In this document: piece after piece, positions 17,447 to 50,773 of the stretch | Layout of the letters: every line of letters begins with the position of its first letter | Numbering within the stretch: position 1 is the first letter of the stretch | Origin: an uncultured bacterium | GTDB lineage: Bacteria; Cyanobacteriota; Vampirovibrionia; Gastranaerophilales; Gastranaerophilaceae | Length of the DNA stretch: 58,832 nucleotides | Assembly (NCBI GenBank): GCA_902783785.1 | Contig: CACZSH010000008.1 | Span: 1 to 58,832, forward strand | Reading direction: 5' to 3' | The notes under the pieces: model-generated | What the model was told of the DNA's origin: nothing | Seen by the model: the letters and a program-made list of their open reading frames with translations, nothing else | Database searches by the model: none | Program-made: the position numbers and the translations under genes

Positions 17447-17483
17447 TTGACTTTTCTGGATTTACTATTATTAATAAAGTATG
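17447..17483 (+). promoter_or_regulatory. Candidate promoter, leaderless start of the FlhA-domain gene
   Basis: TTGACT at 17447-17452, a 16-base spacer, TATTAA at 17469-17474, then 6 bases and the ATG at 17481. No Shine-Dalgarno precedes the ATG. It is divergent from the kinase promoter and shares its 109-base intergenic region. Confidence 0.55.
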
Positions 17484-18119
17484 ATAGGAAAGTTGAAAAC
17501 ATTATTAAATATTAAAAAACCTAAGCAAGTACAAAAAACTTTGGATGAAAAAATTACTGATTTATTTGAGTCGTTGCAAGTTGATGCATTAGCAGTCTCT
17601 TTTGGTGATGATATTTTACCTTTTGCACAAAATATTGTTAATTGTATTGGTAAATTCCGTGTTGCTATGAAAGAAAAATCAGGATTTATAATTCCTCCTG
17701 TTAGGGTTATAAATGATAAAGATTGTCAAGAAAATGAAATACAAATTTTAGTAAGAGGTCATGTTGTATTCCAAGATTTTGCATTACCAACAAAGGATTA
17801 TGTATTGGAAACAATTTTAAATAATCTTGCAAAAATTTCTACTAAAAATATTTCCGATATTTTTACGAACGAAATGACCGAAAAGTACATTGATTTGGTA
17901 CAAAAAAATAATTCTTGGCTTATTTGGAATGTCATGAGAATTGTTCCTGTAACAGGCATAAAGCTAATTCTAGTTGATATTTTAAAAGCAGGTAAATCTA
18001 TTAAGGATATAGTTTTTGTTTTTGAAAAAATATGTGAATATGCATCAGAAAATAAGGATTTTATGTCGACAAAAGATCCTTCCAAAATTGCTGAATGCAT
18101 AAAAAAAGATTTAGTTTAA
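17481..18119 (+). CDS. Orphan soluble FlhA/SctV C-terminal (cytoplasmic) domain protein
   Basis: Residues 34-105 follow the FlhA cytoplasmic domain closely: L-A-V-S-F-G-D-D, then an R-x-A-x-K-x-x-G-F segment, IPPVRV at 71-76, an N-E-I-Q-I-L-V-R-G stretch, and VVFQDFALP. Residues 120-190 match the end of that domain (DIFTNEMTEKYIDLV ... IVPVTGIKLILVDILKAGKSIKDI ... FEKICEYA). The eight membrane spans of FlhA are missing, and so is the middle subdomain that normally carries PAFGLPA and the VVDPSTV segment. The 212-residue protein is therefore a soluble, shortened FlhA_C. In flagella this domain forms the nonameric ring that docks export chaperones. No other export gene is adjacent; FlhB and a FliA-like sigma factor lie 31 kb away. 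Native function here is unknown. Assignment is by pattern, without a profile search. Confidence 0.72.
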   Translation: MIGKLKTLLNIKKPKQVQKTLDEKITDLFESLQVDALAVSFGDDILPFAQNIVNCIGKFRVAMKEKSGFIIPPVRVINDKDCQENEIQILVRGHVVFQDFALPTKDYVLETILNNLAKISTKNISDIFTNEMTEKYIDLVQKNNSWLIWNVMRIVPVTGIKLILVDILKAGKSIKDIVFVFEKICEYASENKDFMSTKDPSKIAECIKKDLV

Positions 18120-49017: not shown

Positions 49018-49686
49018 TTAAAAATCAACTTGATCTCTTGTTTCAAGATATTCTCTTACAAAATTTAGCGCAGATTGAACAATACGAGTTATTCTTGAAG
49101 AAGAAAGGCCAACTTGTCTGGCGATATCTTTAACTTGCATGTTTCTGTAAAAACGATATTCAACAATTGTTCTGTCTTTTTGTGGAAGTTGTGCAATTGC
49201 TTCCTTTATCATTCTTCCCATTTCAGTGATTTCTGCAGCTTCATCTGGCATTGCTTTAGTATCTTTTACGAAGTCGAAAGGGGAATCGTTATCCGAGTTT
49301 GCCATAGCTAAAGAATCAATGGAAAGAATCGTTTCATAAACAGCTTCTCTTACTTTTGAAGGTGTTACATTCATTTCACCATCTTCGCCTTCAGTGAATT
49401 CTTCTCCTTCTTCACCTTCTTTTTTATGTTTTAGCGAATACCATTTGTAACGATTTCTTAATTCATTTCTTATTGCCCATCTTACAGCAGTTCCAATATA
49501 GGCTGAATTATATTTTTCTAATTGTTCTTCTGTCTTATTCTTTATCATTGTTTGAACAGCAATAATACCAATGCTCACAAGTTCCTCATATTCTACCATG
49601 TGAGTAGGTATTCTTCTATGTTCAATTTTTGCAACTTTTTGAACAATATCTATGTATTCTTTTATTCGTTCGTTACTTTGTATCAT
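49018..49686 (-). CDS. FliA/WhiG-like sigma-70 family sigma factor
   Basis: 222 residues. Region 2 is VEYEELVSIGIIAVQTMI ... AYIGTAVRWAIRNELRNRYKW; region 4 is LPQKDRTIVEYRFYRNMQVKDIARQVGLSSSRITRI (ends LPQKDRTIVEYRF and SSSRITRI). The acidic EGEEGEEFTEGEDGE stretch lies in the linker. FliA-like by size and spacing, though a general-stress sigma factor cannot be excluded. It follows the FlhB gene after 25 bases in the same direction, a pairing typical of flagellar loci. No anti-sigma FlgM is seen. Confidence 0.78.
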   Translation of the reverse strand: MIQSNERIKEYIDIVQKVAKIEHRRIPTHMVEYEELVSIGIIAVQTMIKNKTEEQLEKYNSAYIGTAVRWAIRNELRNRYKWYSLKHKKEGEEGEEFTEGEDGEMNVTPSKVREAVYETILSIDSLAMANSDNDSPFDFVKDTKAMPDEAAEITEMGRMIKEAIAQLPQKDRTIVEYRFYRNMQVKDIARQVGLSSSRITRIVQSALNFVREYLETRDQVDF

Positions 49687-49711: not shown

Positions 49712-50773
49712 CTAACGTCTTGTTTTTCTTAAATTATATACAAAAAGTAAAATTTCTGCAACTGCCTTGTATAACTCAGGTGGTATAAGCTGATTAACTT
49801 CAACCATCCGGTACAATGCTCTTGCTACAGGCGCATTGTCTATTACCGGTACTTGATTTTCTTCTGCTATTTGTATAATTTGTCTTGCTATTAACTCAGA
49901 ACCTTTTGCTGTTAACATCGGCGAATCCATTGTTTCTTGATCATATTTTAGTGCACATGCAACATGTAGTGGATTACGAACTACAAAATCGGCTTCCGGT
50001 ACACTATCCATCATCCCTCTTCTTAGCATTTGCATACGTCTTTGTCTTAGTGCTGCTTTGACATTTGGGTCGCCTTCTGTATTTTTATATTCATCCTTTA
50101 TTTCTTTAAATGACATCTTTTGGTCTTTTAAAAATTTCCACTTAGTCATGCCGTAGTCTGCTGCGGCTATTACTAAGAATGCAATGCATGCTTTTGTGAT
50201 AAAATCTGTCATTAATTTCCCAAATTCTATCATTACTGCAAAGTTATTATCTATTTCCGCTAACTGCAAAATTGTTGGTAAATGCTGTGAATATACCATC
50301 CAGCCTATATATCCTAAAATAAGTACTTTTACAATATTTTTTACAAGCTCGAATGCAGTTTTTACGCTTATTAAATTTTTAAAATATTTTGTGGGATTTA
50401 ATTTGTCCAATTTTGGTATTAATGGCGCAGTTGCAATAAGTGGCCCAACTTGGATAAAATCTGATAGTATTGCTATAAGCCAAGCAACAAATAATATAGG
50501 ACCAATTATGAGTACGGTAGGTATTGTTGCCATTGTTAGTGCGTACATAGTTCCTATTACATCTAAATTCGCATTTGGTATTTGTTCATACAGTAGAACA
50601 TATAACTTAGTTATTTGATGCCATATAAACGGAGCTAATGCATTTATTGCCGAAAACATTACAAGAAGTGAAAGTGCAGTTGAAAAGTCTTTAGATTTAA
50701 CAACTTGTCCTTCTTGTCTTGCTTTTTTCAATTTCTGCGGTGTAGCATCAAACTGCTTATCTTCATCACCCAT
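49712..50773 (-). CDS. flhB: FlhB-type export-gate protein with variant NPLH site
   Basis: 353 residues. The N-terminus has the FlhB signature (EDKQFDATPQKLKKARQEGQV), then four membrane spans (about 36-52, 73-104, 140-162, 185-208), a basic linker (RQRRMQMLRRGMM), and the cytoplasmic domain. The autocleavage motif is NPLH at 267-270 instead of NPTH; the scissile Asn-Pro is kept. ALKYD, AKGSELIARQI, PVIDNAPVARALYR and LIPPELYKAVAEILLFVY complete the family pattern. FlhB switches flagellar export from rod/hook to filament substrates. No fliPQR or other flagellar structural gene is near; a free FlhA_C gene lies at 17.5 kb. SD AAAGGA precedes the ATG. Confidence 0.93.
   Translation of the reverse strand: MGDEDKQFDATPQKLKKARQEGQVVKSKDFSTALSLLVMFSAINALAPFIWHQITKLYVLLYEQIPNANLDVIGTMYALTMATIPTVLIIGPILFVAWLIAILSDFIQVGPLIATAPLIPKLDKLNPTKYFKNLISVKTAFELVKNIVKVLILGYIGWMVYSQHLPTILQLAEIDNNFAVMIEFGKLMTDFITKACIAFLVIAAADYGMTKWKFLKDQKMSFKEIKDEYKNTEGDPNVKAALRQRRMQMLRRGMMDSVPEADFVVRNPLHVACALKYDQETMDSPMLTAKGSELIARQIIQIAEENQVPVIDNAPVARALYRMVEVNQLIPPELYKAVAEILLFVYNLRKTRR

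Follow-up and report, generated by a model that had tools for sequence, protein, structure and literature searches.

A free-standing FlhA cytoplasmic domain retaining only subdomains D1 and D3 in Gastranaerophilales, with a possible link to a second, flagellin-independent export apparatus

Proteins of the FlhA/SctV family (FHIPEP, PF00771; TIGR01398, TIGR01399) possess an N-terminal domain of about eight transmembrane (TM) helices. Among the components of the export gate, free-standing C-terminal domains are known for FlhB, as represented by the FlhX/FlhB-like proteins (TIGR00789). The cytoplasmic part of SctV is composed of SD1 (350–418 and 464–479), SD2 (419–463), SD3 (480–569), and SD4 (570–672), and the SctV ring is held by SD3-SD3 and SD3-SD1 contacts (PMC8223533). 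Flagellar chaperones dock at the cleft between D1 and D2 (PMC5932034). No described free-standing FlhA cytoplasmic domain was found in the literature searched. The protein analyzed herein, designated mini FlhA_C, resembles the FlhX/FlhB-like proteins in that a cytoplasmic domain of the export gate stands on its own, but the gate protein is a different one, and the FlhA_C fold is unrelated to that of FlhB_C. It has D1 and D3 in common with FlhA/SctV by sequence, profile, and fold, whereas it differs from them in lacking the TM domain, D2, and D4, and in being encoded by a stand-alone gene away from the export genes. A natural FlhA_C consisting of only D1 and D3 would show that the ring-forming core is separable from the docking parts, and such a protein would be a ready tool for testing the role of each subdomain.

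The window, namely the whole 58,832-nucleotide stretch of DNA analyzed, is part of a 1.78-Mb genome with 97% completeness. The relatives named by protein searches were Candidatus Gastranaerophilales, many of the closest of which, among the matches listed, were from rumen samples. As summarized in Table 1, the mini FlhA_C gene forms an uninterrupted open reading frame, and lies between two genes of the opposite strand, scpB and one for a histidine kinase.

Table 1. Positions of the mini FlhA_C gene, its predicted elements, and FlhB-2 in the window.
Feature	Position	Strand	Remarks
-35 box TTGACT	17447..17452	+	At -34 from the ATG of the mini gene; spacing kept in homologues at many different sites
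Likely -10 box TATTAATA	17469..17476	+	Directly 5' of the ATG; homologues share an ATTAA-like stretch at -12 to -5
Mini FlhA_C gene	17481..18119	+	212 aa, D1 and D3 only; Pfam, NCBIfam, PDB sequence and fold matches, homologues
Predicted amphipathic basic N-terminal helix	17481..17513	+	Residues 1–11 of the mini protein
First part of D1	17559..17795	+	Residues 27–105; alignments to solved FlhA_C, model
End of D1 and D3	17805..18065	+	Residues 109–195; Pfam stretch 110–194 to FHIPEP 455–541; alignment A2
FlhB-2	49712..50773	-	Second export system, proposed context of mini FlhA_C action, not adjacent; PF01312 over full length; found in flagellin-less relatives

In a search against Pfam, FHIPEP (PF00771) was the sole family above the cut-off (59.3 bits vs 29.1, E = 3.6e-16), the second-best match having an E-value of 0.05. 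The top NCBIfam model was FlhA (TIGR01398, E = 2.7e-15), and FlhA also ranked first when the PDB was searched with phmmer. A profile of twelve homologues, in which the numbering of Salmonella FlhA was anchored on the GYXLI motif, placed residues 33–98 on about 360–430 of Salmonella FlhA and the second half of the protein on about 472–575. These alignments, read against the published SctV boundaries, indicated that mini FlhA_C has D1 and D3 but neither D2 nor D4, the D2 gap lying just before residues 109–195 and D4 being missing after them. Both subdomains were likewise absent when the protein was aligned with the solved structures and with FlhA-1 and FlhA-2, the two full-length FlhA proteins encoded in the same genome, and the same composition was kept across the whole core mini family. 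Furthermore, an AlphaFold2 model was obtained with a mean pLDDT of 87 and a pTM of 0.77, only residues 1–15 being below 50, and all of its 50 best fold matches in the PDB were FlhA_C or SctV_C, with FlhA_C from B. subtilis at the top (E = 3.9e-11, TM 0.69). Judged from the sequence and predicted fold, mini FlhA_C is thus a homologue of the FlhA/SctV cytoplasmic domain.

These results agreed well with the initial annotation, which had described a free-standing, shortened FlhA_C aligning in order with FlhA/SctV: the stand-alone 212-residue gene encodes D1 and D3, the IPPVRV and SIKDI motifs are both present, and the profile search and structure prediction that it had proposed as checks pointed to FlhA_C, with no unrelated family exceeding the Pfam cut-off. 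Its description of a missing middle subdomain proved correct for D2, while the loss of D4 had been overlooked.

Neither an FlhA/SctV-type N-terminal TM domain nor any other membrane span was found in the 212 residues, as had also been noted initially; the lone hydrophobic 19-mer (residues 147–165) lies within folded helices of the model. The N-terminus carries hydrophobic residues at positions 2, 5, 8, and 9 in 23/23 homologues and Lys or Arg at position 6 in 22 of them, and the mean hydrophobic moment of the N-termini was 0.67, as compared with 0.48 or less in 2000 shuffles. This amphipathic and basic segment may hold the mini protein at the inner membrane, and several of its distant relatives have TM anchors.

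The view that the gene is transcribed from its own promoter was supported by the TTGACT box listed in Table 1. In 22 of the 24 core minis, a TTGAC motif starts exactly at position -34 relative to the ATG (an in-frame ATG being used for G255); the two exceptions have it at -35 and -55. Among 415 open reading frames in the same stretches, just one other gene family, in two genomes, showed it at -34. Given the usual spacer, the -10 box would be located at about -11 to -6 and the transcript would start at or beside the ATG; the mini transcript is therefore probably leaderless.

Profile searches of 383 genomes of the order, together with one genus-wide and one class-wide search, detected close homologues in about 28 genomes, and all the listed copies were intact. 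The closest unsaturated pair gave a dN/dS of 0.18, indicative of purifying selection. The mini family is accordingly real beyond chance, as confirmed by the intact homologues, this ratio, and the fold match, and the claim that the gene is not a pseudogene held on account of the intact frames, the selection, and the conserved promoter. The initial annotation had considered that its reading would be refuted by a full-length flhA elsewhere in the genome together with decay of the gene in relatives; two full-length flhA genes are indeed present, while the copies in relatives are undamaged and show purifying selection. The relic, one of the three roles originally listed, would be the decaying remnant of an flhA gene and could be imagined from these two genes and from the patchy presence of mini FlhA_C described below. 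It is nevertheless extremely improbable, being refuted by the dN/dS and intact copies and by a promoter and start that are conserved across different insertion sites.

The two full-length proteins differ in their surroundings and scores. FlhA-1 (851 bits) is encoded beside fliP, fliR, and flhB and passes the NCBIfam cut-off for FlhA, whereas FlhA-2 (727 bits), encoded with fliE, fliF, a 341-residue protein in the fliG position, and fliH, falls below the cut-offs of both FlhA and SctV. The 341-residue protein itself (L037:3311-4336, minus strand) had no Pfam match. The presence of FlhA-1 tracks that of flagellin, which was found in 37 of 56 relatives (24/41 among the good genomes), while FliP and FlhB were present in all 56. 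Genomes with two copies of FliP and FlhB were nearly all flagellated, and those without flagellin retained FliP-2, the lower-scoring FliP copy of about 220 residues. FliI above the cut-off was found exactly once in each of six flagellin-less genomes checked and twice in flagellated ones. The persistence of these FliP-2, FlhB, and FliI copies without flagellin indicated that a flagellin-independent type III apparatus is organized around FlhA-2 in this order. Its components (FlhA-2, FlhB-2, FliP-2, FliI-2, FliF, FliE, and FliH; at L037:413-6461, at the FlhB-2 gene of the window, and at other places) were near-universal in Gastranaerophilales. In the first report, Di Rienzi et al. counted two flhA genes among the flagellar ones and pointed out that MEL.A1 lacks filament genes (PMC3787301). 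The literature searched contained no account of type III systems in this order, and the second apparatus looks undescribed as a non-flagellar system; mini FlhA_C draws attention to it. Directly beside FlhB-2 in the window lies a gene for a FliA/WhiG-type sigma factor (49018–49686, minus strand), which could be a controller of the second export system.

Mini FlhA_C was present in 5/5 sampled genomes of one genus and in 17/65 of another, where the minis scored 211–314 bits and everything else 98 bits or less. A second genome of the window's own genus retained the last 24 residues (88% identity) beside scpB at a contig end, and in a class-wide sample of 240 genomes strong matches occurred in the same family only. 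The patchy presence in the 65-genome sample indicates that the apparatus works without the mini protein. Carriers included three flagellin-less genomes (G013, G019, and G047) and one lacking FlhA-1 (G375). In addition to FlhA-2, every carrier possessed a soluble FlhA_C paralogue of 491 residues (L038:7044-8519 in the window genome); G289 and G308 had a contig-cut FHIPEP gene instead of FlhA-2. The 491-residue paralogue resembles mini FlhA_C in being an FlhA_C homologue without a membrane span encoded by a separate gene, but it is a complete FlhA_C (D1–D4) with an extra N-terminal region and is near-universal in the order, having been found in 17/17 mini carriers checked and most other members. 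In the window genome, its gene follows genes for outer-membrane assembly (BamA/TamA-like) and OmpH-like proteins. In a phylogenetic tree, FlhA-1 stood apart at 100% support, and the core minis clustered together near the 491-residue family and FlhA-2 with moderate support and long branches, which places mini FlhA_C, with moderate support, on the FlhA-2 side rather than with the flagellar FlhA-1. An origin from FlhA-1 was rejected by the tree and by the occurrence of the gene without flagellin.

The retention of D1 and D3, which make the ring contacts, the absence of the D2 docking part, and a set of conserved residues specific to the minis and absent from FlhA-2 and the 491-residue paralogue (Q83, E84, N130, E131, E134, W149, G171, and K172) led us to propose that mini FlhA_C is an accessory subunit of the FlhA-2 ring. 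Through D1 and D3 it would join or cap the ring of the flagellin-independent apparatus, with Q83-E84, N130-E131, E134, W149, and G171-K172 possibly forming a new contact surface. Because D2 and D4 are missing, its presence would deprive the ring of docking sites, and a modulating role would be expected, in the simplest case that of a brake on export. A functional, membrane-associated accessory paralogue that modulates export in this manner is our favored, albeit tentative, interpretation, for which we would put the chances slightly short of even; both its binding to FlhA-2 and its effect on export are inferred. Of the roles initially listed, that of a regulator thus remains. Against the proposal, none of the mini genes shares an operon with export genes, and no neighbor is conserved. 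The neighbors of 30 copies included no case of flagellar or type III export genes, so that the context next to fliPQR or flhB suggested in the initial annotation was examined and not found, and an all-against-all comparison of the neighbors gave no conserved partner; one genus shared only the site beside gyrB, and another only prophage genes. FlhA-2 itself, moreover, lacks some of the ring-contact residues of SctV (SsaV contacts mapped by eye). This isolation from export genes and the many mini-specific residues would also be expected if the protein, although membrane-associated, had taken on a new function outside type III export, with the D1/D3 fold as a mere scaffold. We regard this as improbable, because the mini protein is limited, among the matches listed, to the order with the near-universal FlhA-2 apparatus, and because the subdomains kept are exactly the ring-forming ones.

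A distinct feature of the mini genes is their rapid divergence. In seven genomes of one genus, mini FlhA_C is located at the same site, divergent from gyrB, and the minis share 42–74% identity except for one pair with 98%, in contrast to 93–98% for GyrB; FlhA-2 and the 491-residue paralogue, measured in six of the seven genomes, were 95–99% and 91–93% identical, respectively. For the 98% pair (G394 and G395), the synonymous divergence was 0.02 in the mini gene but 0.76 in gyrB, 1.01 in FlhA-2, and 1.81 in the 491-residue paralogue. Around the mini ATG, the two sequences are about 99% identical between about -200 and +700; the identity drops to about 88% in gyrB and disappears on the opposite flank. 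These observations showed that a unit of about 0.9 kb had been exchanged between species. The genes upstream of gyrB (L205–L234) differ in almost every genome of this genus, the gene order being very unstable, and therefore no clean empty site could be defined.

Within our favored interpretation, the combination of fast divergence and interspecies transfer suggests a partner that changes, for instance a substrate or a protein of a competitor. It could also be supposed that mini FlhA_C is a conflict gene that travels on, or is disseminated by, mobile elements and either shuts the export machine against a phage or rival that uses it or shields FlhA-2 from an attacker. In addition to the exchanged block and the divergence, prophage genes adjoin the mini gene in G373 and G277 and lie near it in G255, and recombinase and type III restriction genes adjoin it in G013. 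We nonetheless consider this unlikely, to about the same degree as a new job outside export, since most copies are situated among ordinary chromosomal genes and no homologue was found in the phage genomes of INPHARED or IMG/VR, which also led us to reject a phage gene in general. In one genus (L085, L086, and L087), the mini gene was observed at the edge of prophage genes encoding a terminase, a portal protein, and a 76-residue membrane protein. A changing partner, together with the patchy presence, would also fit a dedicated adaptor, in which the mini-specific residues serve as a candidate new surface binding a strain-specific substrate or its chaperone and D1/D3 dock on the FlhA-2 ring to aid export. 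Such an adaptor appears a little more plausible than the conflict gene but is still doubtful, as the protein lacks D2, one half of the cleft in which flagellar chaperones are known to dock, as well as half of the site proposed for SctV (D3/D4), and no candidate substrate gene travels with the mini. A docking adaptor of the known kind, as considered initially, is unlikely, given that the flagellar cleft is formed between D1 and the missing D2 (PMC5932034). Returning to the accessory ring subunit, its most far-reaching form would be an exchanged, fast-diverging subunit that blocks or re-programs the flagellin-independent type III machine of gut Gastranaerophilales as a strain-specific switch. 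To this we give perhaps one chance in a few, and an arms-race-like evolution of an export-gate part, if true, would be surprising.

More distant FlhA_C-like proteins lacking D2 at the same place as mini FlhA_C showed varied N-termini. They included proteins of 238 and 249 residues with one TM helix in G026, a 335-residue protein with two TM helices in G047, and a soluble 285-residue protein in G025, with similar frames of about 277–302 residues elsewhere. A protein of about 595 residues in one genus (L044:9042-10823, minus strand) likewise has D1 and D3 without D2, but, unlike the minis, it keeps D4, carries TM segments, and has an N-terminal region resembling the fliG-position protein of the second system. 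G026, which possesses three mini FlhA_C genes, also encodes a TPR protein that carries the C-terminal domain of FlhB in free-standing form (L041:4793-5812).
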